In this document: positions 18,506 to 63,884 of the stretch, one piece after another
Position numbering within the stretch: the stretch's first letter is position 1
How the letters are laid out: each line of letters opens with the position of its first letter
Assembly (NCBI GenBank): GCA_003864495.1
Contig: ML133420.1
Span: 4,488,340 to 4,552,339, forward strand
Reading direction: 5' to 3'
Source of the DNA: Nemopilema nomurai
Lineage: Eukaryota > Cnidaria > Scyphozoa > Rhizostomeae > Rhizostomatidae
Length of the DNA: 64,000 bases
Notes under the pieces: generated by a model
Told to the model about the DNA's origin: nothing
What the model saw: the letters and a program-made list of their open reading frames with translations, nothing else
The model's database searches: none
Position numbers and translations under genes: made by a program

Positions 18506-19687
18506 TCATTTCTTGATTGTTTCCAACTGGAATTTTTCTACCAGATTCTTCCTGTGCCTCCTCTCCCTTCTAGTTGCGGGCGGGGCCGAGTTCTCCCTCC
18601 TGGTTACCGTATTTTTTCGCATCACCTCGAGTGAAGTCCAACTATGCGACTTGACATTATCCGGGTAGATTCGGTACGCCCTGTCAACATGCCGGGACGA
18701 TGCTTCGTCTAGGTCCAGTGTGCCAGGGATCAGCGTCGCCTCTCTGCCGGCACTATCCTTCCTTTGAATCGATTTCCTATTGTGTTCCCGTTCCATGTCC
18801 GTCGCACAAACGTTGATGGAAACAGTCTTCTTTTTCCCTTGGCTGCTGTTGCTTCCCGTACTCGTCGTTCTAGCTATACTCATATTCCCATTGTAACCGC
18901 TTCGAGCCTCCTTCCCAGGGTTTTCCAGTTGCTCAGCGTCATCTAAATCTTCAATTTCAAGATCGTTGTCTGCAAAAGATAACTTTCTCCCTCTAGTCTC
19001 AAACAGCGCTGGAGCCTTTTCTTCCCGAATGGCTGATTTGTTAGTAAGCAACAGCGAATCATTGTCCTGATGCAGGCGTACTGCGTGGGAGGAATGGCTC
19101 AATGCTCCTTCGTCCTCCGATTCCGATAAATTCTCAGAGGTTTGCGCACAGCGTCCATTTAGGTGTCCATTTTGTCGGGCAGAATGTTGCCCCCTGAGGG
19201 AATGATTGTCACGGGACGCCTTCGACGGTAGTCGGTCTTCCTTCCTTGCTAGTTTCCCTCTGCAGTATCGGGTAGGAACGAATTTCGGCGGTGGCTCTGG
19301 AGGTTTTCTCGCAACGGCAAGGCGCAAAGTGCATACCCAACGATACCGTTGAAAGTTTGTCTCACACTTGAATTGGTAGTTTAACTTCCCCATTTTCAAG
19401 TAAAACGGAAACCGGTAACACGTTTTTCGCATATATCCCACGGTTGCGTCCGGCGTTAGTTCCAACATCGTGCAGTTGTTCTCAATGATTTTTCCAGTCT
19501 GGGGATCTTTTCTGTTAAAAATCAAATATGTATCGCAAAGAACCGCATAATATTCGGTCCAAACGCGCGAAGCTTCTTTCTTCAGCAGCACTTCCCGATA
19601 GTAGATCTTTTCCGGATGTGGAACCGAGCTTGGAATTTGAAATTCCATTGAGAAAACGGGGGTATTTAAGCAGCCTGGCTGCTCCAC
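18506..19687 (-). CDS. PH-domain protein, 393 residues
   Basis: Single uninterrupted frame from ATG 19687 to TGA 18506. Residues about 27-128 form a pleckstrin-homology domain: YYREVLLKKE at strand 1, WTEYYAVLCDTYLIF at strands 2-3, YRFPFYLKMGKLNYQF in the later strands, and RYRWVCTLRLAVAR as the C-terminal helix with its invariant Trp. The remaining ~260 residues are low-complexity and charged, with Ser/Thr-rich stretches (STGSNSSQGKKK) and acidic segments (LEIEDLDDAEQLE), and look disordered. A PH domain suggests phosphoinositide or protein binding at membranes and a signalling-adaptor role; I cannot name the family more closely. The true start could be the second Met (residue 14), and an upstream exon is possible. 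Confidence 0.75.
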   Translation of the reverse strand: MEQPGCLNTPVFSMEFQIPSSVPHPEKIYYREVLLKKEASRVWTEYYAVLCDTYLIFNRKDPQTGKIIENNCTMLELTPDATVGYMRKTCYRFPFYLKMGKLNYQFKCETNFQRYRWVCTLRLAVARKPPEPPPKFVPTRYCRGKLARKEDRLPSKASRDNHSLRGQHSARQNGHLNGRCAQTSENLSESEDEGALSHSSHAVRLHQDNDSLLLTNKSAIREEKAPALFETRGRKLSFADNDLEIEDLDDAEQLENPGKEARSGYNGNMSIARTTSTGSNSSQGKKKTVSINVCATDMEREHNRKSIQRKDSAGREATLIPGTLDLDEASSRHVDRAYRIYPDNVKSHSWTSLEVMRKNTVTRRENSAPPATRRERRHRKNLVEKFQLETIKK

Positions 19688-21118: not shown

Positions 21119-22439
21119 AGTCGCTCTTAGTTGGACGTTTCCAAACAGAACGCTTCGAAACTAATCAATGGGACGTTTCCAAACAGAACGCTTCCAAACT
21201 TATCAATGGGACGTTTCCAAACAGAATGCTTCCAAACTAATCGTTCTTAATTGGACGTTTCCAAACAGAACGCTTCCAAACTAATCGATGGGACGTTTCT
21301 AAACAGAACGCTTCCAAACTAATCGTTCTTAATTGGACGTTTCCAAACAGAATGCTTCCAAACTAATCGTTTCTTAATTGGACGTTTCCAAACAGAATGC
21401 TTCCAAACTAATCGCTTCTTAATTGGACGTTTCCAAACAGAATGCTTCCAAACTAATCGCTTCTTAGTTGAACGTTTCCAAACAACGCTTCCAAACTAAT
21501 CGCTTCTTAATTGGACGTTTCCAAACAGAACGCTTCCAAACTCATCGCTTCTTAATTGGACGTTTCCAAACAGAATGCTTCCAAACTAAACTTCTTAGTT
21601 GAACGTTTCCAAACAACGCTTCCAAACTAATCGCTTCTTAATTGGACGTTTCCAAACAGAATGCTTCCAAACTAATCGTTCTTAATTGGACGTTTCCAAA
21701 CAGAATGCTTCCAAGCTAATCGCTTCTTAGTTGAACGTTTCCAAACAGAATGCTTCCAAACTAATCGTTCTTAATTGGACATTTCCAAACAGAATGCTTC
21801 CAAACTAATCGCTTCTTAGTTGAACGTTTCCAAACAGAACGCTTCCAAACTAATCGCTTCTTAGTTGAACGTTTCCAAACAGAACGCTTCCAAACTAATC
21901 GCTTCTTAATTGGACGTTTCCAAATAGAATGCTTCCAAACTTATCGCTTCTTAGTTGAACGTTTCCAAACAGAACGCTTCCAAACTAATCGCTTCTTAAT
22001 TGGACGTTTCCAAACAGAATGCTTCCAAACTAATCGCTTCTTAGTTGAACGTTTCCAAACAACGCTTCCAAACTAATCGCTTCTTAGTTGAACGTTTCCA
22101 AACAGAACGCTTCCAAACTAATCGCTTCTTAGTGAAACGTTTCCAAAAAGAACGCTTCCAAACTAATCGCTTCTTAGTTGAACGTTTCTAAACAGAACGC
22201 ATCCAAACTAATAAATGGAACGTTCGCAAACAGAACGCTTCCAAACTAATCGCTTCTAAGTCTAAGGTTCCCAAACAGAACGCTTCTAAACTAATCAATG
22301 GGACATTTCTAAAGAGAACGCTTCCAAACTAATCGTTCTTAATTGGACGTTTCGAAACAGAATGCTTCCAAACTAATCGCTTCTTAGTTGAACGTTTCCA
22401 AACAGAATGCTTCCAAACTAATCGTTCTTAATTGGACGT
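21119..22439. repeat. Satellite array, left block, ~44-45 bp monomers
   Basis: About 30 tandem monomers with core ACGTTTCCAAACAGAA, YGCTTCCAAACTAATCG and a variable linker (TTCTTAGTTGA or TTCTTAATTGG; rarely AATGG). Monomers of 44 and 45 bp alternate. The array is cut at 22439 by the BEL/Pao element and continues directly after it. Confidence 0.97.
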
Positions 22440-22864
22440 TGTTAAAAAGGTTTCCAAGCTTGCTGTTGTATGTTAATTCGCTGTTTGTATAGTAATCAAC
22501 GCTTATATTGCACTCAGATATTGGCTTTTGCACATGCACTTGCATTTAAATTCTTAGCATTTTTAGGGAGAAAAGATTTTCCTCCCTATTGTATTCACTT
22601 AAATATATAACTCGTTATTATAATTTAGGAGCAGAGTGACGGAAGGAGCGTAGGAGATGAGTGAAGTATGAAAGAAGAAAAAGAGCGAAAACGAAGAGAA
22701 AAATAAGCGGATTGAAAGTGTTATCGAGAGAACGTTAAGGAGGCCTTCGCAACGCATCGCAGTTGTTTTAAGATTTATTTATAACCAGTTTGTTATTCAA
22801 GGTTTATTCCTTTTCTTATTGTTGAACTCACCGCCGAAAGGGCAAATTGCTGCCTTTTCGAACA
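22440..22864 (+). repeat. 5' LTR of the BEL/Pao element
   Basis: 425 bp, TGTT...AACA ends. It differs from the 3' LTR at two sites (AACGTTAAGG versus AACGTTTAGG, and CTCACCGCC versus CTCAGCGCC). Confidence 0.95.
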
Positions 22865-22913: not shown

Positions 22914-24072
22914 ATGGATCTTGCCCAGCAGAAAAGAATTCGGGCTGGAGTGCGGGCTTCAGTGTCAAGATTGATTACGAAGATTGAACGATGCTTGTTG
23001 GCATACAGTGACGACACAGACAGGAAGACCTTGCGGCAGTTGAAAGGACAACTTGAGGAGAAAGAAAAGTTTTTGAAGAAACTTGACCAAGATATTTTGG
23101 TTCACGTTAGCAAAGATGAGGGGAGCGAGGATGCTTGTGAAAATGAAATTGAGGATGCAGCCAAATTCAATGAAAGAATAGGCCTTCTTAGTCTGACTAT
23201 TTCGGATCAACTTGAGCAGACGGCAAATAATCTGACTAGTCCAGTAACACCAAGCAGCATATCAACGGAATCAAGTGAATCGTCAGCAAGAAAAGCGAGA
23301 GTAAAGCTACCACAGCTCGAGGTTAAGAAGTTTGGCGGCAAGGCCGAGGAATGGACAGAATTTTGGGACAACTTCGAAAGCAGTGTGCACGAAAACGATG
23401 AGCTTACGGCTGTGGATAAATTTTCGTACTTAAAGTCCTTGTTGCTTGAACCGGCCAGGTCTGTAATTTCTGGATTCAAGTTAACAGCGGAAAATTACCA
23501 ATCAGCGATTGATCTTCTTCGTCAACGATACGCAAAACCTGCGGTTATAAAGCGTGCCCATTTGAACAAGTTACTCACTACAGAGAAAATTCACAACGAA
23601 AACAACGTGCCGCGACTTCGTGCCCTTTACGACTTGATCGAGACCAACATTCGCGGGCTTGATGCCTTGGGAATTGATGAGGATGCGTACTGTTCAGTTG
23701 TTGTGCCTGTTTTAATGGAAAAACTGCCTCAGGATTTCAGATTAAACATGATTAGAGGAGCAGCGAGTCCTTCATCTTATGAAGATTGGAGCGTTAGAAA
23801 ACTTGTTGGACGCGTTCAGGAGGGAGCTGGATATAAGAGAAGTTCAGCAACCGATGCTTAGGGCGGCAGGAGGATCGACGGAACACGGGATTGCTAAATC
23901 AAGTTCAACGAGAGAGCCAGCAAGATCTGCAAGTGCCTTGATGACGAGCGACAGGAAGCCAAGATGCGCCTTTTGCAATGATTTTCACAAAGAAGAGGAC
24001 TGTAAGAAGGTTTTAGATTTGAACGCTCGTAAGAATGTTTTGAGAAAATACGCTAGGTGTTTCTGTGTTTAA
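22914..24072 (+). pseudogene. BEL/Pao gag region, frameshifted
   Basis: ATG 22914 opens a 315-codon frame with the family's N-terminal signature (RIRAGVRASVSRLITKIE) and a capsid-like segment (KFGGKAEEWTEFWDNFESSV). An apparent extra base at about 23793 throws the frame off: ORF 1 ends at 23861, while the natural continuation (LLDAFRRELDIRE) is in the neighbouring frame. That frame carries the first zinc knuckle (CAFCNDFHKEEDC) and then stops at 24072, where a base seems to be missing at about 24063 within the next knuckle. These look like random damage, because neither site resembles a classical slippery sequence, but programmed shifting is not excluded. Confidence 0.85.
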
Positions 24073-27000
24073 AGAAAGGGCACAGGGTAGCTAATTGTCA
24101 CTCTACGCAGTTGTGTAAGCATTGCATGGGCACTCACCATTGTACTATCTGTCCTAGAGTTATAGGTTGTGCGAATCCCAGCGCTTGTGTAGGCACGATA
24201 GGAACTAGTAACGGAGTCGTATTGCAAACAGCCCAAGCGATTTTGAGTGGAGAAGGAGAGAAGAAAATGAGAGTTAGAGTTTTGTTTGATACTGGCTCAC
24301 ATCGTTCATTTGTTACTTCTAGTCTTGTTGACAGGTTGAAGTTGAAGGTAGTTGCAAATGAAAGCATTGGAATAAGGGCATTTGGTGCAAGCACTCCTGA
24401 GACAAAAGTAAGGCAAATTGTTGAAGTTTCATTGATGCCTATTGCTAATGATGCAAGTAAACAGGAAAGTATCACTCTTCGCTGTATTGTTGTAGATGAA
24501 ATTTCAGAGATAAGTAATGAAAGGATTGATCTTGTCAAGAATGATTATAGTCATCTCAGAAATATATGGTTTTCTGATGTTTGCAAGAGTGATGATACCC
24601 TGCAGGTTCAAGTGCTGGTTGGTGCAGACCAACTTTGGTCAATTCAAGAGGACCAAACAATACGAGGGGGGCCTAATGAACCAGTAGCTCTTAGGACTAA
24701 ATTAGGCTGGGTGATGTCAGGGCCTCTCAAAGGTAAGCGTATTAATGATAATGATGTCAGTGTCAATCATGTGTCAGTTATTGAGTCTGACAGCCGTGGT
24801 GTTTCCATCAATGATTGTGTGGAAAAAATTTGGGATTTAGATAGTGTAGGAATCCGTGAGTGCAACGAAATTCAGGAGGAAGTATTAGATGATGTGAGGT
24901 TTGATGGAAACAGATACAGTACAAAGTTGCCTTGGAAAGTCAATCATGATCCCTTACCTTCTAATTATAGCACAAGCCTTGCCAGGCTCAAAACACAAGT
25001 CAGGAAATTGAAAGGTCAGCCAGAGGTGATGAAAGAGTATGACAACATAATATCTGAGCAGTTGAAAGAAGGAATCATTGAAAGGGTCACAAATTTGGAT
25101 TCAGGTAAGAATGTTCATTATTTGCCCCACCAAGCAGTCATTAGAAATGAAGCAGAAACCACCAATGAAGCACAAATATTGGTTGAACCCTCTGATAGGG
25201 ATGTGTTGCGATTTCTTTGGGTAGAAGACATAAATGCATATGCAACATAATATCTGAGCAGTTGAAAGAAGGAATCATTGAAAGGGTCACAAATTTGGAT
25301 TCAGGTAAGAATGTTCATTATTTGCCCCACCAAGCAGTCATTAGAAATGAAGCAGAAACCACAAATGAAGCACAAATATTGGTTGAACCCTCTGATAGGG
25401 ATGTGTTGCGATTTCTTTGGGTAGAAGACATAAATGCAAGTGAATTGTCAGTCATAGAATACAGATATCGCACTCTTGTTTTTGGGGTAAACTCGTCTCC
25501 TTTTCTTCTTAATGCCATTCTCAGACATCACATTAGAATGTATGAAAAGCAAGACCCTGAATTTGTTAAGAATTTGTGCGAAAATTTTTATTGTGATGAC
25601 CTGGTGACAGGATGTGATGATTTTGAAGAAGCCTCGCAGTTATACCAGAAGGCCAAATCACGACTTTTAGAAGGGGGTTTTCAGCTCAGAAAATGGAAAA
25701 CCAATGAACCAGAATTACAGGCAGTAATTAGGGAGTCTGAAAAGGGAAACCAGGTGAATGAAAACAGTTGTGTTGAACAAACTTATGCTAAAGAGAAGCT
25801 TGGCCTAGAAGTAACAGCCACTGGGAAAACCAAGGTCTTAGGGATTGATTGGGATGTTGAGAAGGATAAGTTTGAGTTTCAGCTAGACAGAATGATAGCA
25901 GATCTTCAGGACAAGGCAGCGACAAAAAGGAGTATCTTAAGTGCTTTAGCTAAGCTTTTTGATCCTCTGGGATTAGTGAGCCCATTGACAGTTAAGGCTA
26001 AATCTGTTTTTCAAGAATTGTGTGCCATGAAAATTGATTGGGATGATGACTTACCCTCTACAGCTAAGAAGAAAGTGTCATCTTGGATATCAGGTTTAAA
26101 GCATTTTCCCAAGATTTCCGTACCAAGATGCTTATATGGAGCTGATTCCAAGGAAATTAAGAGTTGCTACTTGCATGGCTTTGGAGATGCCAGTTTGTCT
26201 GCTTATTGTGCCACAATATATATGGTATATGAAACTCCAAATGGTGTATGTTCCCAGCTTGTTTGTGCTAAGACTAGGATTGCACCATTGAAAGGCCACA
26301 GTATCCCAAGGCTTGAATTGCTTTCAGCTAGAATTTTAGCAAATCTGATGAAGACAGTGTATGATTCTCTTAGTTCTCAGGTACATATTGATGGTGTACG
26401 CTTCTGGTTGGATAGCAAAACGTCCTTATTTTGGATTCTGAATTCTGGGGAGTGGAAACAATTTGTGAGGCATCGTGTTAATGAAATTTTGACCAGCACA
26501 AATAAGGTTGATTGGGGTCATTGTCCGGGGGTGGAAAACCCTGCAGATATTGGATCCAGGGGGGTTTCACCTGAGTCCTTGCAGACAAGTGAATTGTGGT
26601 GGCATGGTCCAAAATGGCTCAGGTTAGGGACAGCTCATTGGCCAAAAGGTATCATTTTAGAAAATTCGGAAGAGATTCAATCTGAATGCAGGAAGACAAC
26701 AGCAGCACACATTGTCACAATTGCAGAAAAAACACCTGTTATTGATGTTCACAGATTCAGCTCTCTACATCGGCTTCTAAAGGTTACAGCATGGGTTCTG
26801 AGGTTTAAGAACAATATGATTGCTAAGAGGAGAAATGAAACTGTTAATCGTGAGAATGATTTGAGCATAGATGAATTGAACGAAGCAGAACGATACTGGA
26901 TTTTAGAAAGCCAGAAACAATTATTGGAGAGCAAGATGGTTGAAAAGGTAGGACAACAACTTGGTTTGTTCAAGGAAAATGGTATTGTTAAATGCAAAGG

Positions 27001-28312
27001 TCGAATGGAAAATGCAGATTTGGAAATGAATGCCAAATTTCCCATTTTGTTGCCATCGGAACATCATTTCACATGGCTTGTTACTGATTATTGTCATTAC
27101 ATTGCCGGTCACAATAAAGTTAGACAGACACTGAGTGAACTAAGAAGCAGATTTTGGGTAGTGCATGGAAGACAGTATGTCAAAAAAGTTATACAAAAAT
27201 GCAACGTTTGTCGAAGACATGAAGGTAAACCCTATTCACCACCTACTACTGCACCATTACCTGAACATCGTGTGCAGGAGGCACCACCCTTTAGTAATTG
27301 TGGACTAGATTTCGCAGGGCCACTGTATTACAAATCTGAATCAGGTGAAATGAGGAAGTCATATTTTGTATTGTTCACTTGTTGTACATCACGAGCGGTG
27401 CATTTAGAACTGGTAAAAGATTTATCAGCACCTACATTCATCAGAAGTCTTCGTAAATTTACAGCTAGAAGAGGAGCACCTGCTTTAATAATTTCTGATA
27501 ATGCTAAGACTTTCAAGGCTACTAAAAGGTTCATGGAAAGTCTTCATAATGATATAACGGTAAAGAATTTCTTGCTCATTCGTAGAATAAGATGGCATTT
27601 CAACCTGGAACTCAGCCCTTGGCAAGGAGGTATGTTTGAACGACTCATTGGTAGCACCAAGAGGTGCTTACGAAAGGCCTTGGGCAGTGCCAGATTGACA
27701 TATGATGAATTGTCTACAATTCTTATAGAAGTTGAAGCAATTCTAAATGCCAGGCCACTAACGTATTTATATGATGAGTTAGGTGAAGAGCCACTAACTC
27801 CTGACCATCTGATTTTTGGAAGGAAATTGTTTTCTTTTGTTGACGGATTACCTGATGGTAAGGTTGACGACATTCCCTGTGATAAACGATTTTTTTATTT
27901 GACACAGAAATTATCTCACTTTTGGAGTAGGTGGCACAAGGAGTATTTGACAGAGCTTAGGGAATCACACAGACATGTTAGAGCAGGAGATAACATGCTA
28001 AATAAAGGAGACTTGGTTTTGGTGCAAGAAGATAAAATAAAACGTGGTATGTGGAAAATGGCAAAGGTGGTAGATTTGCTTCCAGGAAAAGATGGAGTTG
28101 TTCGGGGGGCCAAGGTTTGTGGCAATGTTAAGGGTAAGCCTGTTTATTTTAATCGACCGATACAAAAATTGTATCCATTGGAGTTATCTATTCCTGTAAA
28201 CGTAGAATCGCAGAATGAGTTGGATTCTGGAGAGAGAGGGAGGAAACGCCCGCGGCGGTCGGCTGCAATTGACTCCATGTGGCGCACGCGCACTATGCTT
28301 GACTCAGGGTGA
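24057..28312 (+). pseudogene. BEL/Pao pol region: protease, RT, RNase H, integrase; interrupted
   Basis: The frame 24057-25250 holds two more CxxC knuckles and an aspartic protease with active-site LFDTGS near 24290. It is closed by a TAA created at the junction of a 200-bp-offset tandem duplication (25043-25238 repeated at 25243-25438). A second frame, 25217-28312, resumes in the duplicate. It contains RT motif C as FYCDDLVTG, RNase H acidic residues (GFGDAS, PRLELLSAR, WLDSKTS), an HHCC zinc finger, and the integrase catalytic triad in GLDFAGPL, ISDNAKTF and GGMFERLIG. It ends with the family's C-terminal segment (TPDHLIFGRK through RGMWKMAKVV). Between QAVIRNEAETT and NEAQILVEPSDRDVL the palm segment expected to hold RT motif A, with a catalytic Asp, is absent in both copies of the duplication. 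Confidence 0.9.
25043..25438 (+). repeat. Tandem duplication inside pol, 200-bp offset
   Basis: 196 bp starting CAACATAATATC and ending CATAAATGCA occur twice, at 25043-25238 and 25243-25438, separated by TATG. One mismatch was seen (ACCACCAATG versus ACCACAAATG). The duplication introduces the stop at 25248-25250. Confidence 0.95.
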
Positions 28313-28751: not shown

Positions 28752-29234
28752 GACGTTTCGAAACAGAATGCTTCCAAACTAATCGCTTCTTAGTTGAACG
28801 TTTCCAAACAGAATGCTTCCAAACTAATCGTTCTTAATTGGACGTTTCGAAACAGAATGCTTCCAAACTAATCGCTTCTTAGTTGAACGTTTCCAAACAG
28901 AATGCTTCCAAACTAATCGTTCTTAATTGGACATTTCCAAACCGAACGCATCCAAACTAATAAATGGAACGTTCGCAAACAGAACGCTTCCAAACTAATC
29001 GCTTCCAAGTCTAAGGTTCCCAAACAGAACGCTTCTAAACTAATCAATGGGACATTTCTAAAGAGAACGCTTCCAAACTAATCGTTCTTAATTGGACGTT
29101 TCCAAACAGAATGCTTCCAAACTAATCGTTTCTTAGTGGAACGTTTCCAAATAGAACGCTTCCAAACTAATCGTTCTTAATTGGACGTTTCGAAACAGAA
29201 TGCTTCCAAACTAATCGCTTCTTAGTTGAACGTT
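28752..29234. repeat. Satellite array, middle block
   Basis: About 11 monomers of the same 44-45 bp satellite, including the marker variants CCAAGTCTAAGG and CAATGGGACATTTC that recur in the other blocks. Bounded left by the BEL/Pao element and right by the miniature LTR element. Confidence 0.95.
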
Positions 29235-29677
29235 TAGTGTAACGAGTATTGTGCCTTGTTGTGTGCGATTCGTTCACTAATAAAACCATCCATCGACTAT
29301 CGTGTCATTTCCAAACCCAGCGAGTCTTATTTTACGTGCAGAGAACACGGAGCCAGAGAGAGAGACAGTGTGTTGCTTGATTGTAACTGAACTCTGAACT
29401 GAACTGAACTTACATAAAAATTAACATGCTTATATACAGAAATGAATATCTAAAATTAGCACGAATGATGTAAGGAAAACAAAGGATAGGAAGGGCGAGT
29501 GAAGGTGATGAGTAAATTGAATAGCGTGCAAAGATTGAGTAAACAATAGGGATTAGCGAATACGTGATATGAGAGTGACGTAGAGGATGCCTGTGCTGCG
29601 ATGTGAGAATGTGGGAAAATGATGGAATGAATAAGAAGGAAAAATTGATGTAAACAGGCCTAAATAGAGTCACTACA
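29235..29677 (-). repeat. 3' LTR of the miniature element
   Basis: 443 bp, one base shorter than its partner (GCGTGCAAAG versus GCGTGGCAAAG). Confidence 0.88.
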
Positions 29678-30723: not shown

Positions 30724-33470
30724 AACGTTTCCAAACAGAATGCTTCCAAACTAATCGTTCTTAATTGGACGTTTCGAAACAGAACGCTTCTAAACTAATC
30801 AATGGGACATTTCTAAAGAGAACGCTTCCAAACTAATCGTTCTTAATTGGACGTTTCGAAACAGAATGCTTCCAAACTAATCGCTTCTTAGTTGAACGTT
30901 TCCAAACAGAATGCTTCCAAACTAATCGTTCTTAATTGGACGTTTCGAAACAGAATGCTTCCAAACTAATCGCTTCTTAGTTGAACGTTTCCAAACAGAA
31001 TGCTTCCAAACTAATCGTTCTTAATTGGACGTTTCGAAACAGAATGCTTCCAAACTAATCGCTTCTTAGTTGAACGTTTCCAAACAGAATGCTTCCAAAC
31101 TAATCGTTCTTAATTGGACATTTCCAAACAGAATGCTTCCAAGCTAATCGCTTCTTAATTGGACATTTCCAAACAGAATGCTTCCAAACTAATCGCTTCT
31201 TAGTTGAACGTTTCCAAACAGAATGCTTCCAAACTAATCGTTCTTAATTGGACGTTTCGAAACAGAACGCTTCTAAACTAATCAATGGGACATTTCTAAA
31301 GAGAACGCTTCCAAACTAATCGTTCTTAATTGGACGTTTCCAAACAGAATGCTTCCAAACTAAACGTTTCTTAGTGGAACGTTTCCAAAAAGAACGCTTC
31401 CAAACTAATCGTTCTTAATTGGACGTTTCGAAACAGAATGCTTCCAAACTAATCGCTTCTTAGTTGAACGTTTCCAAAAAGAACGCTTCCAAACTAATCG
31501 CTTCTTAGTTGAACGTTTCTAAACAGAACGCATCCAAACTAATAAATGGAACGTTCGCAAACAGAACGCTTCCAAACTAATCGCTTCCAAGTCTAAGGTT
31601 CCCAAACAGAACGCTTCTAAACTAATCAATGGGACATTTCTAAAGAGAACGCTTCCAAACTAATCGTTCTTAATTGGACGTTTCCAAACAGAATGCTTCC
31701 AAACTAATCGTTTCTTAGTGGAACGCTTCCAAATAGAACGCTTCCAAACTAATCGTTCTTAATTGGACGTTTCGAAACAGAATGCTTCCAAACTAATCGC
31801 TTCTTAGTTGAACGTTTCCAAACAGAATGCTTCCAAACTAATCGTTCTTAATTGGTAGTTTCGAAACAGAACGCTTCTAAACTAATCAATGGGACATTTC
31901 TAAAGAGAACGCTTCCAAACTAATCGTTCTTAATTGGACGTTTCGAAACAGAATGCTTCCAAACTAATCGCTTCTTAGTTGAACGTTTCCAAACAGAATG
32001 CTTCCAAACTAATCGTTCTTAATTGGACGTTTCGAAACAGAATGCTTCCAAACTAATCGCTTCTTAGTTGAACGTTTCCAAACAGAATGCTTCCAAACTA
32101 ATCGTTCTTAATTGGACGTTTCGAAACAGAATGCTTCCAAACTAATCGCTTCTTAGTTGAACGTTTCCAAACAGAATGCTTCCAAACTAATCGTTCTTAA
32201 TTGGACATTTCCAAACAGAATGCTTCCAAGCTAATCGCTTCTTAATTGGACATTTCCAAACAGAATGCTTCCAAACTAATCGCTTCTTAGTTGAACGTTT
32301 CCAAACAGAATGCTTCCAAACTAATCGTTCTTAATTGGACGTTTCGAAACAGAACGCTTCTAAACTAATCAATGGACATTTCTAAAGAGAACGCTTCCAA
32401 ACTAATCGTTCTTAATTGGACGTTTCGAAACAGAATGCTTCCAAACTAATCGCTTCTTAGTTGAACGTTTCCAAACAGAATGCTTCCAAACTAATCGTTC
32501 TTAATTGGACGTTTCGAAACAGAATGCTTCCAAACTAATCGCTTCTTAGTTGAACGTTTCCAAACAGAATGCTTCCAAACTAATCGTTCTTAATTGGACG
32601 TTTCGAAACAGAATGCTTCCAAACTAATCGCTTCTTAGTTGAACGTTTCCAAACAGAATGCTTCCAAACTAATCGTTCTTAATTGGACATTTCCAAACAG
32701 AATGCTTCCAAGCTAATCGCTTCTTAATTGGACATTTCCAAACAGAATGCTTCCAAACTAATCGCTTCTTAGTTGAACGTTTCCAAACAGAATGCTTCCA
32801 AGCTAATCGTTCTTAATTGGACGTTTCGAAACAGAATGCTTCCAAACTAATCGCTTCTTAGTTGAACGTTTCCAAACAGAATGCTTCCAAACTAATCGTT
32901 CTTAATTGGACGTTTCGAAACAGAACGCTTCTAAACTAATCAATGGGACATTTCTAAAGAGAACGCTTCCAAACTAATCGTTCTTAATTGGACGTTTCGA
33001 AACAGAATGCTTCCAAACTAATCGCTTCTTAGTTGAACGTTTCCAAACAGAATGCTTCCAAACTAATCGTTCTTAATTGGACGTTTCGAAACAGAATGCT
33101 TCCAAACTAATCGCTTCTTAGTTGAACGTTTCCAAACAGAATGCTTCCAAACTAATCGTTCTTAATTGGACGTTTCGAAACAGAATGCTTCCAAACTAAT
33201 CGTTCTTAATTGGACGTTTCCAAACAGAACGCTTCCAAACTAATCGCTTCTTAGTTGAACGTTTCCAAACAGAACGCTTCCAAACTAATCGCTTTGAAGT
33301 ATAAGGTTTCCAAACAGAATGCTTCCAAACTAATTGCTTCTGAATGGAACGTTCCCAAACAGAACGCTTCCAAGCTAATCGTTCTTAATTGGAAGTTTCT
33401 TAACAGAATGCTTCCAAACTAATCGCTTCTTAGTGGAACGTTTCAAAACAGGGTACTTCAAAACAGTACG
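30724..33470. repeat. Satellite array, right block with higher-order repeats
   Basis: About 60 monomers of 44-45 bp, mostly alternating in 89-bp dimers (one monomer with TTTCGAAAC and linker TTCTTAGTTGA, the other with TTTCCAAAC and linker TTCTTAATTGG). The marker AATGGGACATTTC recurs at about 30801, 31283, 31628, 31888, 32371 (one G lost) and 32939. The 30801-31283 and 31888-32371 intervals are both about 482 bp and read alike, indicating an 11-monomer higher-order unit. Monomers degenerate toward 33.47 kb. Confidence 0.95.
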
Positions 33471-55774: not shown

Positions 55775-56356
55775 ATGACAGAGTCTTACAACGCCTGCAT
55801 TTTATTTGCGATAACTCTTGTTTCAAGCGCGTCACTGTGTGTTTCGTTGGTGAAAGGGAACGAAATCAAAGTCGGAGAACGAATGAAGATTTGTGGCATG
55901 GACATCTACTACGCTTTTATTGCTTGCTGTCAGTCGGGGTGCAATGGACGCAGAGCCAAGCGACTGGTTCCGGGTCAGTTTCTTCGCTCTTTAACTTCCT
56001 TTCTTCTTGAGCTCAGTCAAAGTGCTTGTTAGAATCGTCTCTTATTGCTAATCATTATATTTGTTATTCAAATGAGAAGATGGCCTTTTACTCAATTTTT
56101 CGTTTTCACCAAATTCGCCGGATATATGACAAGCACGTGGAAGCTATACGAATAAAAATGTCGAAAGAACTTCTTCATTTTAGAGAGAAATGATGTAAAG
56201 AGAACTCCGGTAATATGGAGAAAAAGTGCCGTGACATTTCTCTCAAGCAGCTCAAGGCGCAAAAGACATCTTCGCACATGGTACAGCAATGCAAGTGAAG
56301 AATGCTGCAACGAAACATGCACCTTCGAAGAAATAGCAGAATACCGATGCCATTGA
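55775..56356 (+). CDS. Insulin-like peptide 1, two exons, 123-residue precursor
   Basis: Exon 1 (55775-55973) encodes a signal peptide (ACILFAITLVSSASLCVSL) and a B chain with MKICGMDIYYAFIACCQSGC, then basic GRRAKR. A GTCAGT donor in phase 1 leads to exon 2 (56184-56356; acceptor TTCATTTTAG), with connecting peptide, an RRKR processing site and an A chain ending SEECCNETCTFEEIAEYRCH before TGA. The CCxxxC core, the LCG-like start of the B chain and the phase-1 intron in the connecting peptide are hallmarks of insulin-superfamily genes. Differences from vertebrate insulin: CC instead of a single second B-chain Cys, a further Cys three residues later, and nine instead of eight residues before the last A-chain Cys. 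Secreted hormone by homology; receptor unknown. The gene converges on insulin-like gene 2. Confidence 0.85.
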
Positions 56357-56421
56357 GCACTCTGTATACGCATTACACTTGCATTTATACCTCTGTATAC
56401 GCATTACACTTGCATTTATAC
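56357..56421. repeat. 31-bp direct duplication after insulin-like gene 1
   Basis: CTCTGTATACGCATTACACT plus TGCATTTATAC occurs twice in tandem directly after the stop codon, probably in the 3' UTR. Confidence 0.9.
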
Positions 56422-56769
56422 CAGACGCGTGTTATTATTTAGCGAAGCATACGCCGCGAAATTAATGGCAATCAAATTCAATACGCAACATGTTTCTACC
56501 TTAAGCATTTTTATCTTAAAGAGATGTATTACCTTCTTCTTCTTCAAAACATTTCTTACCACTGCCAATTTGTTTGGCATAAAAGATTATTTTAATTATA
56601 CCCGAAACAGTCCTTGGGTCAACAACATGGGGAATTCATGCCTCTCATTCGGCATGAAATCCCGATAGGAAGCACTCTTTCAATAATTTTCACAGCCAAA
56701 TAGATTTAGTTTTTATTATTTTAGGACTGGTAGGCAATGTAAAATAGTCATTAAAATTATGTCAAAAAG

Positions 56770-58554
56770 CTAGTCATGACAGTACTCTCTCAGTTCTTCT
56801 AAAACGCATCCTTCGTAGCAACATTCATGGATTGCCGTTGTACATTTCTCTTCTTCAACGTTTGGCTTTTTTGTGCCCCTGCGATGCCTTTTCAGCCCCG
56901 TAGCAATGAATGTAGTCGCCTTCGCACGGGTTATGAAGTGCTTCACTGTTTCTGAAAAAGCCACAATCACAGAAACTCTCTTACAGTAACAAAAAGAATA
57001 GTGCATAATGATATGCTAGGCGTTCATCTATTTCATAATTTATAATCATGATTGGAAGCTGATAATTCTAAAAAGCTCTATTAATATCAAATAGAGCGGA
57101 CAATCTAGAGATGATTTCCGTATGGTATCAGAATAAGTTCAATAATTTTTACAGGAAGCCAAGGTTTTGAAAACAAGATGTATAATGCAGAGATTTTAAT
57201 CAACATATGTTTATTTAATTATCTTACCATTAAACTTAAAACCCAAATTTTAAAAAAGAGCTTGGAAAAACTATAAAATAGTCTAGATGCTTGAAACAAT
57301 TACTGCTTGAAAAGCAGCTTTTGCTGTTATGCTAACGATCATTTGCGCAGGCGCTGTAGAAAGCTGTTCAATAGCTCTGATCAATAACTCACAAAGCATA
57401 GGTTTAATTTGCAGATCTTGAGGCTGTTTGCTTCATGGACGATCGGTAATGCAAAAATTGGCGAGGTCAATTGTTTCTTTTATAAGCCAGAAGTAGGCTT
57501 TTTGGAAATATCGATATCACGTGCTCAGCGGATTCGTCACCAACTCTATTGGTTTGAACTGCTTTTGGCAGACCATAAAGCAACAAGACAACAAAAACAA
57601 CTTCAGGAGTAAAAATCTTAGGTATCCAAGCATGTCTGGGTAGAAGGAAAACATTTTGCTGTCAGTGCAACTAAAATTGCAATCAGAAAACTCATTATTT
57701 CTAGCAGTTTGGTATTGGCTAGCCTGGTTTCACAAGATAAAAACTATAACAACCGTAAGGGAAGTATATCAGATAATAATAATGATGGCGAGGATAATGA
57801 CGATAATGATAGTGGATGGATCAAGGCAAGGATAGAGCGAAAAGATAGTTTTAAATCCATGCGTGGTAAAAAGAAGAAACTGTAAAGCCTATCATTTGTG
57901 AATGAACAAAACGTACACAAAAGGGAAACACAATCCGCACTGGCAGCTAGATTGTGTCCATACAAACCCCCCAGAACTAGAAGGACTGACATTAGAACTC
58001 ATTATAAAGAAAGGAACATCTGGCAATTCTAGGAGGTCACAGAGCTGAAAAGGCCTGTCTTGATGTGAAACTGGGGCTCAAATAGCCCCTCATGGCAAAA
58101 ACCCAAAAGGACTTTATCCTATAGAGAAAATATTCAAAGTTTTGAAATTTGAGATGTTGGTAGATTGTGCCGTGTTGAAGTGCCAAGTGATCATTGCATC
58201 GCCCTATCGCGCTCATAGTGACTCCTAGAGCTTCGTAAAATGATCAAATCACTGCTAAACACTTGACTGTATCTTTTCTCAGGGAAAATTAAAATTTGTA
58301 ATGGTAGATATGCGATCACCTTCAATGCGCGTCTTTCGGGAAAACAATGAGTGTGAGTAATGAAACTATGAAACATTGAGTGAGTTACCTCGTCTTTGGC
58401 TCAAGGCTTCGCATTTCTTCTGGTTGGCACAGCAGTAATCAATAGCGCTCTCGATTTCACCCATACCACAAAGCTTCATCAATTCAGCTTGCAATAGTGG
58501 CATGGTTACCACGTAAATTGACGAGATCAATAAGGCATAATGTAGATTTCGCAT
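56770..58554 (-). CDS. Insulin-like peptide 2, two exons, 115-residue precursor with 9 mature cysteines
   Basis: Exon 1 (58554-58389) encodes a signal peptide (YALLISSIYVVTMPLLQA) and a B chain LMKLCGMGEIESAIDYCC followed by ANQKKC and QRRG. The donor is CGAG|GTAACT in phase 1. Exon 2 (56951-56770; acceptor TGGCTTTTTCAG) encodes a connecting peptide rich in KR and RR (LKRHRRGTKK) and an A chain EKCTTAIHECCYEGC followed by VLEELREYCHD. Here the A-chain core is canonical CC-x3-C-x8-C, unlike genes 1 and 3, and there is an additional Cys upstream of the CC pair. With four B-chain and five A-chain cysteines the total is odd, so one may be free or pair between molecules. The intron is about 1.4 kb. 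Tandem neighbour of gene 3: both exons 2 are exactly 182 bp and begin with the same AAACA. Confidence 0.85.
57010..58380. other. Intron of insulin-like gene 2
   Basis: AT-rich, with short open frames on both strands (for example 57409-57612 and 57744-57992) that show no domains. The frame at 57409 is not an insulin chain despite a few cysteines. Confidence 0.5.
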
Positions 58555-59104
58555 CCTAACTTAATAAAATCTCTTAAAATCTAGCACCGTTGAATCCGGT
58601 TTGAATCTCTGTGTGCAGCGAATCTTTGGCTACCAATCCATTGATCTGAATCTAAAAATGTTACTGCTCTACTTATGAAGTTAGGCTACTTATAAAGTAA
58701 AGTTTCAGGGGGTTTATTTTGGTGTTGAAAAAGTACTTAGGTGTTCAATGATATTTGTCGTATTGATAGAAAAATTTGAGGAGGATAATGACGACATTAG
58801 TTGCAAAGCAGCATTAAGTCGTTAATTTCAACGTGAAAGGTAGAATTTTGTATAAAAAGCGATTTAATATTTTCTTTCTCTGGGGGAGAAATGTATTTCA
58901 GGTCCTGTGATAACAATTTTTCTTCACTGCCTGTGCAAATAAAAGTTGACAGCCCTTCTTCGGCTTGCTCTCTTGAGGGTTTGGAGGAGATGTTTTGAAA
59001 AGTGCAGTGATTTGGCATGATCTACGTCACAACGTCCTGAATGTGTCCATTCAATTCAGCGAGGCAATTTCAATGATAACACCGAAATGCTAGTGGCAGC
59101 AACA

Positions 59105-59651
59105 AATGGCTGGTGCCTAATGGCTGGTGCCTAATGGCTGGTGCCTAATGGCTGGTGCCTAATGGCTGGTGCCTAATGGCTGGTGCCTAATGGCTGGTGC
59201 CTAATTGCTGGTGCCTAATTGCTGGTGCCTAATGGCTGGTGCCTAATGGCTGGTGCCTAATGGCTGGTGCCTAATGGCTGGTGCCTAATGGCTGGTGCCT
59301 AATGGCTGGTGCCTACTGGCTGGTGCCTAATGGCTGGTGCCTAATGGCTGGTGCCTAATGGCTGGTGCCTAATGGCTGGTGCCTAATGGCTGGTGCCTAA
59401 TGGCTGGTGCCTAATGGCTGGTGCCTAATGGCTGGTGCCTAATGGCTGGTGCCTAATGGCTGGTGCCTAATGGCTGGTGCCTAATGGCTGGTGCCTAATG
59501 GCTGGTGCCTAATGGCTGGTGCCTAATGGCTGGTGCCTAATGGCTGGTGCCTAATGGCTGGTGCCTAATGGCTGGTGCCTAATGGCTGGTGCCTAATGGC
59601 TGGTGCCTAATGGCTGGTGCCTAATGGCTGGTGCCTAATGGCTGGTGCCTA
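59105..59651. repeat. 14-bp minisatellite (TGGCTGGTGCCTAA)n
   Basis: About 39 nearly perfect copies between insulin-like genes 2 and 3. The few variants seen are TTGCTGG (twice) and CTACTGG (once), so the array is very homogeneous. Confidence 0.98.
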
Positions 59652-59877
59652 TCACATACTTCGGAGGAGAAAGAAGCCTTTTTCCCCGCACCCAGCTAAA
59701 GCTGTTTACGAACCCGGAAGAATGGCATGGCTTCTTCTGTATTGGCAACTGGCAGACACAGTCCCATTGAAGACCTTTTTGTTTCTCACAATGTACAGGA
59801 GCATAACGCTACCAGTGGTGTGTTAGTAGCATTTTCAATAGTATATTCAGTTACAAGATCTTCCCTAGCTTGGCTTT

Positions 59878-59946
59878 AAAAATCAATCAATCATTACAGT
59901 CAATCAACCATTACATTACAATCAATCAATCAATCAATCAAGCATT

Positions 59947-59986
<40 letters not shown>

Positions 59987-59992
59987 CAAATT
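59878..59992. repeat. (ATCA)n microsatellite
   Basis: Interrupted runs of AATC/ATCA tetranucleotides, longest at about 59,948-59,984. Confidence 0.9.
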
Positions 59993-60327
59993 ATACAATG
60001 ATAGCTTACATAACGTGTTGCCTATTCCCTTGCTAATTTCTACGAAGACATCATACCACTTCAAGGGTTGATCTTGTGCCTCTTTCTGGCAAACAGCTTG
60101 CTGGTAATAAGAATGTTTCCCACAGAAAACAAATATTAATTGCATTTCCTAAATGCCTTTCAAATACATAGACATTCTACAGAAAGAGCTTATTGCGGAT
60201 AAGTATTCCCTTATTCCATACGCGAATCTTGATTAATGTTACATTAGCACCTGTTAACAAGGCTTGTCTATTCATTCTACGTTACAAATCGATGATCAAC
60301 ATGGACGGACTGTTCTAATCGCAAAAG

Positions 60328-61252
60328 CTAATGACATGGGTATTCCCTAACTTCTTCCAGCGTGCAAGTCTCTAGACAGCATTCTTCGTTGGGTTCTTGG
60401 TGAGGAAACAAAGACCTTTTCCCTCGCTTCGAGTCTGGTTTTCTCTTAAGAAACAATGTTGCTTCTCTTCTTTTCAAAACTCTCGCAGGAACTGCAAGCC
60501 CCGTTGTTTCTGTAGATTAAACAGTAGGTCACGGGCGATTAGAAAACGAAAGGTAGATGTTTAGCCACGATGCCAAAGCACAGTTGCTAAACCGATTGCA
60601 TTGCTGAAAGAAATGGTTTTCAAACCAGAAAGCGATCGAAAAAGAAAGTAACCTGACATAGTAAAAGCAGAAATTCTTAAGAACTACACTGTTAGTGCAA
60701 AATATGAGAAAATACAACAGAGTCAACTTATCTCATCCAACATGCCCTTTTGTTGAAAGCTTACTCCTACAATTGATGCTTGTAGACAGAATTTTCTAGT
60801 ATTGAACTTACAGAAGAAAAAGTTCAATACCAACTTTGATGCATAGATTCAACTGTTCTTCTTAAGGATAAAAAGCAGTCTAATAGCACATTGGAAGTGA
60901 TGTGTCTGATTGATTAGAAGAACTACTTGCTTTTAAGCAAATAACTAATATTCGCCAATTTCTGATACTGGCTACGATCTGCCAATATGTAAAGCCTCAC
61001 TGCTGTCAATAAGTTAGGTACAGGACCAAGAGAAAACACATTAGGCCTACCTGCTAAACCTTGCCAAGACCTCTTAAGGTGGCCATCTTTGCATGCCGCA
61101 TCGTCAAAGCAACAGAGCCAATAATGATAGATGAAGTCTAGGCCACATAGCCTTTTTGCATGGCTTGGTTTGATCTCAGCACTATGCGCAAATGAACCAT
61201 TAATCAAAATGCAGCTTGCCATCGCAGCAAGAAACAGGCACGCATTGACCAT
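60328..61252 (-). CDS. Insulin-like peptide 3, two exons, 127-residue precursor
   Basis: Exon 1 (61252-61051) gives a signal peptide (ACLFLAAMASCILINGSFAHS) and B chain AKRLCGLDFIYHYWLCC followed by FDDAAC and HLKRS. The donor is GCAG|GTAGGC in phase 1. Exon 2 (60509-60328; acceptor TTTAATCTACAG) gives a connecting peptide with several dibasic sites (LKRRE, LKRK, SKRGKR) and an A chain NEECCLETCTLEEVREYPCH before TAG. B-chain cysteine spacing (C-x10-CC-x5-C) and the A-chain CC-x3-C-x9-C resemble gene 1 rather than its tandem neighbour gene 2, although the 182-bp second exon and AAACA start match gene 2. Secreted, processed peptide hormone by homology. Exon 1 alone continues open to 60923, but that extension is intron. 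Confidence 0.87.
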
Positions 61253-63696: not shown

Positions 63697-63884
63697 GTCT
63701 TATCATTTGACTACGCCATGCCCCTGCTTCAATTCGGATTGCTCGCATCCTCGCCTCCAAGTCAAAGGTCCTTTGGCAAGAAAACGATGTCATTTCTTCT
63801 CGGTTATGTTTTCGTGTTGCGCCAACCCAGATAGCTGTTTACCAAAGGCAGATAAGAGTATGATGAAAAGGAGCAACACTAAAC
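63697..63884 (+). CDS. Possible exon of a fourth insulin-like (B-chain-like) peptide, weak
   Basis: A short open segment between a plausible acceptor (TTCCATTTAG) and a donor AAAC|GTAAGG in phase 1, the same phase as the three insulin-like genes. It encodes ARKRCHFFSVMFSCCANPDSC followed by MMKRSNTKR, a basic site, a Cys, a CC pair, CC-x5-C and further basic residues. This resembles the B-chain exons of genes 2 and 3 (CCANQKKC, CCFDDAAC). Against it: the Gly after the first Cys is missing, the spacing is C-x8-CC, extra cysteines (PCPCFNSDC) lie upstream, and no signal peptide is attached. Any A-chain exon would be beyond the right edge. Confidence 0.25.

Follow-up and report, generated by a model that had tools for sequence, protein, structure and literature searches.

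Organization of the insulin-like cluster and its relatives

The segment between positions 55775 and 61252 of a 64,000-nucleotide stretch of DNA (hereafter the window) carries three two-exon genes whose translated models read as insulin-like precursors, and all their introns are of the GT-AG type and of phase 1, one base being left over at the end of each exon 1. Three genes with exactly these exon junctions had been proposed in a preliminary description of the sequence, together with a layout in which a signal peptide and B chain are followed by dibasic sites and an A chain with ECC-x3-C, and all three models translated in this way. The precursors (123, 115, and 127 aa for genes 1, 2, and 3, respectively) run in the order signal peptide, B chain, C-peptide, and A chain with basic cleavage sites, the signal peptides and cleavage sites being assigned by eye, and their A exons end with ECC-x3-C-x8/9-C, one or two further residues, and the stop codon. 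The exons are located as follows:

55775..55973 (+): gene 1 exon 1, signal peptide and B chain (ICG-x9-CC-x3-C), phase-1 donor
56184..56356 (+): gene 1 exon 2, remaining C-peptide and A chain, including the stop
56297..56353 (+): gene 1 A-chain core, EECCNETCTFEEIAEYRCH, which has E-x3-E-x-C
58389..58554 (−): gene 2 exon 1, signal peptide and B chain (LCG-x10-CC-x5-C), phase-1 donor
56770..56951 (−): gene 2 exon 2, remaining C-peptide and A chain, including the stop
56773..56829 (−): gene 2 A-chain core, HECCYEGCVLEELREYCHD
61051..61252 (−): gene 3 exon 1, signal peptide and B chain (LCG-x9-CC-x5-C), phase-1 donor
60328..60509 (−): gene 3 exon 2, remaining C-peptide and A chain, including the stop
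60331..60387 (−): gene 3 A-chain core, EECCLETCTLEEVREYPCH

The A-exon pattern is rare by chance. When a dibasic site, 3–30 aa, CC-x3-C-x8/9-C, and a stop within 4 aa were required together, the pattern occurred three times in the window and in none of 200 dinucleotide-preserving shuffles; dropping the dibasic requirement again gave three occurrences, and 7 of the 200 shuffles then had at least one, with a maximum of two. A looser pattern (CC-x3/4-C-x7-10-C) gave five matches in the window, three of which are genes 1–3. The other two, CC-motif frames at 22464 and 28351, were rejected, being one sequence present twice beside retroelement-like frames. Such frames (recognized by eye) occupy 22914–28312 and are flanked by 45-base tandem arrays; tandem arrays lie at 21211–22440, 28752–29235, and 30725–33451, and 25038–25438 holds a tandem duplication of 200 bases. 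Repeats are also found within the cluster: between genes 2 and 3, at 59105–59651, a 14-base unit (AATGGCTGGTGCCT) is repeated in 39 near-perfect copies, and a perfect two-copy 31-base repeat at 56360–56422 begins three bases past the stop codon of gene 1.

The cluster runs on past the window in the order gene 1 (+), gene 2 (−), gene 3 (−), and a fourth A exon (+), for which a candidate first exon lies inside the window:

63697..63884 (+): fourth gene candidate exon 1, a frame with B-like cysteines (C-x8-CC-x5-C) and a phase-1 donor but no in-frame ATG
C53:4553295-4553455 (+): fourth A exon, intact, about 1 kb beyond the window (L016 3296-3456; window equivalent 64956-65116)

The ATG frame that follows the acceptor of this candidate meets an early stop, and the first exon of the fourth gene may be broken, mis-assembled, or starting elsewhere. 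At least two more complete insulin-like genes were found on contigs C46 and C56; paralogue counts are lower bounds because the genome search scored only the best candidates. Two B-chain-like frames, on C133 and C112, were rejected, since no A-exon-like frame was present among the frames of at least 60 aa listed for these two 3.2-kb loci, which have 2541 of about 3200 20-mers in common. In all five complete gene models (the three cluster genes, C46, and C56) a single exon encodes both signal peptide and B chain, and a phase-1 intron interrupts the C-peptide. A plausible acceptor was also seen by eye 0–20 bases 5′ of the ATG in each of the five, thus an additional intron in their 5′ untranslated region is possible.

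This gene structure agrees with that of known insulin-superfamily genes (papers are cited here and below by their PMC numbers and on the basis of excerpts). The phase-1 intron in the C-peptide is described as conserved in relaxin/Dilp8-type and Dilp7-type genes, and relaxin/Dilp8-type genes have it, as here, as their single coding intron (PMC11863921). The second, phase-2 intron that Dilp7-type genes carry between signal peptide and B chain is, in contrast, absent from all five complete models.

Genes 1–3 encode four B-chain cysteines (C, CC, C) and four A-chain cysteines, gene 2 having a ninth one ahead of the A chain, and their B chains thus contain two more cysteines than those of the C46 and C56 paralogues, which have only two. 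The expected B-chain features, C-G and C-x11-C, were found in genes 1–3 and in C46 (in genes 1 and 3 the x11 cysteine is the second C of CC), while C56 deviates with CS and x12. In the A chain, the C-x8-C ending expected of the superfamily holds exactly for gene 2, as CC-x3-C-x8-C, but not for genes 1 and 3, which have x9 at this position, as do the fourth gene and C46; C56 reads CC-x4-C-x8-C. Oulactis sp. IlO1_i1 and its anthozoan relatives are described as combining a conserved A chain with two additional B-chain cysteines, as found here, although the extra pair is N-terminal in some anthozoans and lies on the C-terminal side in genes 1–3 (PMC8698791).

The assignment to the insulin family was examined with profiles. 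The three cluster genes scored 16.2, 20.5, and 14.6 bits against the Pfam Insulin model PF00049, whose gathering cut-off is 23; in the five own precursors the alignment covers positions 2–80 to 8–81 of the 81 profile positions, that is, nearly end to end. PF00049 was the first match for four of these five spliced precursors and the second for gene 3, where the unrelated DUF6488 scored slightly higher. Nine of the 11 exon-2 sequences (six own genes and five relatives, see below) matched Pfam Insulin, with a best E of 2.9e-6. Searches of the own genome with PF00049 and with PF01353 gave no match, but the control was also silent in both, so absence is not shown; a PF00115 search of the own genome found no match, NCBIfam gave no relevant match, and a tRNA search with the bacterial code found none.

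Exon-2 sequences were used as the query for outside relatives because the protein database seemed to consist mostly of uninterrupted frames. An exon-2 profile run against this database of 5.8 billion sequences gave five matches among 25 candidates (E 6.2e-12 to 1.7e-3), while with one spliced precursor as the query none of six candidates scored in the same database and PDB yielded 0 matches. All five relatives match PF00049, only P0016 (28.6 bits) lying above the cut-off, and P0014 and P0015, which are near-duplicates, keep the gene 2 stretch ECCYEGCVLEELREYC unchanged. Pairwise comparison of the A-chain cores in five paralogues over 15 codons (10 pairs) gave 36, 25, and 82 differences at the first, second, and third codon positions. 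P0015 lies on a contig of 3,076,886 bases, a length shared by the longest of the contigs carrying P0004, which is related to the PH-domain protein encoded at 18506–19687 (−) of the window (relatives 42–79% identical, 11 of 2213 candidates at E ≤ 1). If both are on one contig, this hints that the linkage of the gene 2 relative and the PH-domain protein is conserved.

Exons for receptor L domains form two sets on one strand of contig C22, separated by about 20 kb (G000:C22:3153190-3178376). The one exon tested had the insulin receptor as its best match (E 9.3e-26, with erbB receptors from 1.2e-20) and was identical to a coral insulin receptor at 76 of 175 positions. The two sets may perhaps represent two insulin-receptor-type genes that pair with the expanded set of ligands.

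Considering the span of the Pfam match, the paralogues, the relatives, the shared phase-1 intron, and the receptor exons, we concluded that the three genes are almost certainly genuine members of the insulin superfamily, as had been proposed, and most likely tandem duplicates of insulin-like peptide genes of a cnidarian-type animal, the cnidarian affinity being judged from the match to a coral insulin (see below) and from the resemblance of the receptor exon to that of a coral. Multi-gene insulin clusters are ordinary, and apart from the element described below this is an ordinary cnidarian-type insulin family, a known kind of gene. The preliminary description had included neither the extra B-chain cysteines nor the fourth gene of the cluster, the paralogues on other contigs, or the conserved element of the C-peptide.

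A conserved C-peptide element

The C-peptide of each cluster gene contains a segment resembling the recognition site of gamma-carboxylase:

56210..56242 (+): gene 1, VIWRKSAVTFL
56905..56937 (−): gene 2, FITRAKATTFI
60448..60480 (−): gene 3, VLKRREATLFL

The element consists of a hydrophobic residue, five residues, A, two residues, F, and L or I, and it stands N-terminal to the glutamate-rich A chain. The A and F of its A-x-x-F-[LI] part do not vary among the 11 exon-2 sequences, all of which have them, and the motif is present in 12 of 12 when the published Pocillopora insulin is included; the residue at A-6 is hydrophobic in 11 of these 12. Shuffling the residues of each C-peptide reproduced the full pattern in 0.05–1.1% of cases, although the sequences are related and these values are hence not independent. 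At the A, F, and L/I codons of the element, 9, 0, and 31 differences were counted at the three codon positions among six paralogues.

The resemblance to carboxylase substrates emerged from searches of PDB, which covered 177,635 sequences. A profile of the five precursors gave 37 matches with Factor X as the first (E 6.3e-4), and Factor X, Factor IX, prothrombin, and Matrix Gla protein (MGP) were interleaved with DILP1, DILP5, and insulin chains. The two kinds of matches separated when the profile was split into an A-chain-only and a C-peptide-only part, each built from 10 of the 11 sequences (P0014 was omitted as a near-duplicate of P0015). With the A-chain part, the A chains of Drosophila DILP1, 2, 5, and 5 were the top four of nine matches (E 0.0021–0.12), while with the C-peptide part MGP took the top three of nine (E 2.4e-4, 0.0041, and 0.028) and the fourth, at E 0.76, was unrelated. 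Thus, the C-peptide element is carboxylase-site-like and the A chain is insulin-like. Two of the top three MGP matches, 9l24 and 9wfc, are chains of PDB entries that also contain the gamma-carboxylase GGCX, so these peptides were solved together with the enzyme. The reversed C-peptide profile, used as a control, gave 0 matches in PDB. A profile restricted to the six C-peptides of the own genome still placed MGP at ranks 1, 2, and 4 of eight (E 7.3e-4, 0.012, and 0.2).

A gapless score was compared with its own randomizations. For the own set, the real score against MGP was reached by 0 of 20000 column permutations and 0 of 20000 target shuffles, and that against Factor X by 0 and 2 of 20000, respectively. 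For the relatives set (P0012, P0013, P0015, P0016, and Pocillopora, with P0014 again left out as a near-duplicate), neither kind of randomization reached the real MGP score in 20000 trials. The MGP matches are in exact register with the element, and the own set is in register with the Factor X propeptide as well. In Factor IX, residues F31 and L41 are reported to contact the binding groove of the carboxylase (PMC12589487), and by our count they correspond to positions A-6 and A+4 of the element.

MGP and the propeptide-Gla unit of Factor X and IX (9l24, 9nub, 9bvl, and 9bvk) present the same register of a hydrophobic residue, A, and L/I as found here, and the recognition element stands upstream of an E-x3-E-x-C stretch in these proteins as in the cluster precursors. 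However, they are not insulins, and their Gla domain continues beyond the point where the cluster A chain ends. Among insulins, a close published parallel is Pocillopora damicornis pdam_00006633, which has the insulin precursor layout of the cluster genes, LMEEKEALSFI in its C-peptide, and EECCIEGCTIGELKEYC in its A chain; unlike genes 1–3 with their four B-chain cysteines, it has two in the B chain as printed, and the excerpts make no remark on the C-peptide element (PMC10838073). It matches PF00049 with 40 bits over positions 2–81 of 81 and is identical to the C46 paralogue at 21 of 49 aligned positions in the exon-2 part.

Predicted carboxylation of the A chain

The genome also encodes the enzymes that such a modification would require. 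Two exons assigned to GGCX match the HTTM family. One matches GGCX of PDB at E 1.4e-42, with an aligned KK pair at 217–218 in the numbering of 13ib, and an additional exon does so at E 7.6e-53 over 434–621, the luminal part past the linker. Lysines K218 and K217 of GGCX are assigned to catalysis and substrate binding, respectively, and M401 is located in the linker to the propeptide-binding domain (PMC12589487). VKOR was matched at two places, on C106 and C162, with the same three-piece pattern; these loci could have arisen by duplication or could be the two haplotypes of a single gene. Of the features expected of a Gla protein system, GGCX and VKOR are therefore present in the genome, and a recognition element N-terminal to glutamates is present as a sequence pattern. 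The glutamates themselves form E-x3-E-x-C in the A chain of 11 of the 12 sequences (11 exon-2 sequences and Pocillopora). E-x3-E-x-C is a Gla-domain signature, and the A6–A11 loop of insulin and the Gla loop have the same C-x4-C spacing.

These features suggest that the cluster probably encodes vitamin-K-dependent insulins, gamma-carboxylated on the A chain. In the proposed course of events, the C-peptide element would dock on the propeptide-binding domain of GGCX in the endoplasmic reticulum, and the enzyme, with vitamin K recycled by VKOR, would turn some of the A-chain glutamates (those of E-x3-E-x-C and of the EE..E after it) into gamma-carboxyglutamate. The C-peptide, including the docking site, would then be excised at the basic residues, having served as a carboxylase propeptide as well. 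Once mature, the two-chain hormone would bear extra negative, metal-binding groups and would act on insulin-type receptors, for which candidate genes are present in the genome. That insulins can be carboxylated follows from Con-Ins G1, which carries gamma-carboxyglutamate at A4 of the A chain and B10 of the B chain; this and other cone-snail venom insulins are, however, specific to the venom gland and their modification was shown experimentally, unlike the prediction made here from sequence; the excerpts mention no docking element in them (PMC6372279).

Several observations weigh against carboxylated insulins. All five own precursors remained at 14.6–20.5 bits to PF00049, under the cut-off. 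P0016 lacks the hydrophobic residue at A-6, and in C56 a D replaces E in E-x3-E-x-C. In the search with the own-genome C-peptide profile, an unrelated ribosomal protein took the third rank (E 0.18), between the MGP matches, and the relatives set resembled Factor X weakly, since the real score was reached 337 times in 20000 column permutations and 447 times in as many target shuffles. The A chains do not qualify as Gla domains: PF00594 was matched by one of the 11 members, with 16.5 bits against a cut-off of 27, and a PF00594 search of the own genome gave no match, though its control was also silent and absence is not shown. The A-chain-only profile reached the Gla domains of Factor IX at E 2–3.9, ranked under two unrelated proteins. 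Finally, periostin, annotated as a Gla protein partly for its recognition-like motifs, was found uncarboxylated (PMC4537219). Its motif residues lie mostly within a fold, whereas the motif described here precedes the candidate glutamates and belongs to a linker that can be removed, an arrangement like that of propeptides. Taking these points together with the evidence for docking, we regard the combined reading, insulins that would be gamma-carboxylated by way of C-peptide docking, as somewhat favored; it is the one that brings all parts of the system together.

Alternative explanations and implications

The strongest competitor is that the genes encode ordinary cnidarian insulin-like peptides with unmodified glutamates, and that the likeness to a carboxylase site arose by chance or convergence. 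The element would then be a segment for helical folding, sorting, or convertase recognition, or a bioactive C-peptide. All the evidence for insulin identity fits this explanation without any modification, most sequences have basic residues close to the element, as a convertase-linked segment would, periostin shows that such motifs can mislead (PMC4537219), and the weak resemblance of the relatives-only set to Factor X is in line with it. It accounts less well for the best PDB matches of the element being MGP in exact register, with the own set matching the Factor X propeptide too, for the presence of both GGCX and VKOR genes, and for a neighboring A chain whose conserved glutamates follow a Gla-like pattern. 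We consider ordinary peptides possible, but short of probable.

It appears unlikely that the cluster encodes prey-directed gamma-carboxylated insulins like those of cone snails instead of endogenous hormones. A role as venom components has been proposed for insulin-like peptides of sea anemones (PMC10972341, PMC10971979), and gamma-carboxyglutamate is present in cone-snail venom insulins (PMC6372279), but the identical ECC…EYC core of the two gene 2 relatives is more in keeping with a conserved hormone than with a toxin that evolves fast, and insulin-receptor-type exons are found in the same genome. That the three models are pseudogenes or chance frames rather than expressed genes, as the apparently disrupted first exon of the fourth copy might suggest, is very improbable given the lack of A exons with a dibasic site in the shuffles, the codon-position differences in the A-chain cores and the element, and the relatives in other public sequences.

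A further-reaching version of the carboxylated-insulin reading supposes that insulin exon 2 is homologous to the propeptide-plus-Gla exon of clotting factors, the two having a common origin instead of having converged. It draws on the phase-1 intron, the putative carboxylase-docking C-peptide, and an A chain with E-x3-E-x-C and a C-x4-C loop, and the Factor IX intron would fit it by its phase and place; even so, we hold common ancestry to be quite doubtful. If it were true, the maturation of insulin-like hormones would be where vitamin-K-dependent carboxylation began, and GGCX would still have cnidarian insulins among its substrates.

The predicted vitamin-K-dependent insulin, acting through the C-peptide element, would be the new aspect of this cluster. 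In open-licence PMC, the titles and abstract beginnings of the matches listed do not name a docking element in non-venom insulins, which is weak evidence of novelty. The prediction is testable as a +44 Da modification on the named glutamates. GGCX and VKOR are reported from animals without a known carboxylated protein, and the Drosophila enzyme is active although no classical Gla protein has been described there (PMC12112360). If cnidarian proinsulins carry a conserved docking element, GGCX would gain a candidate early substrate, the conservation of part of a C-peptide would be explained, and vitamin K would be linked to insulin signaling outside venom.

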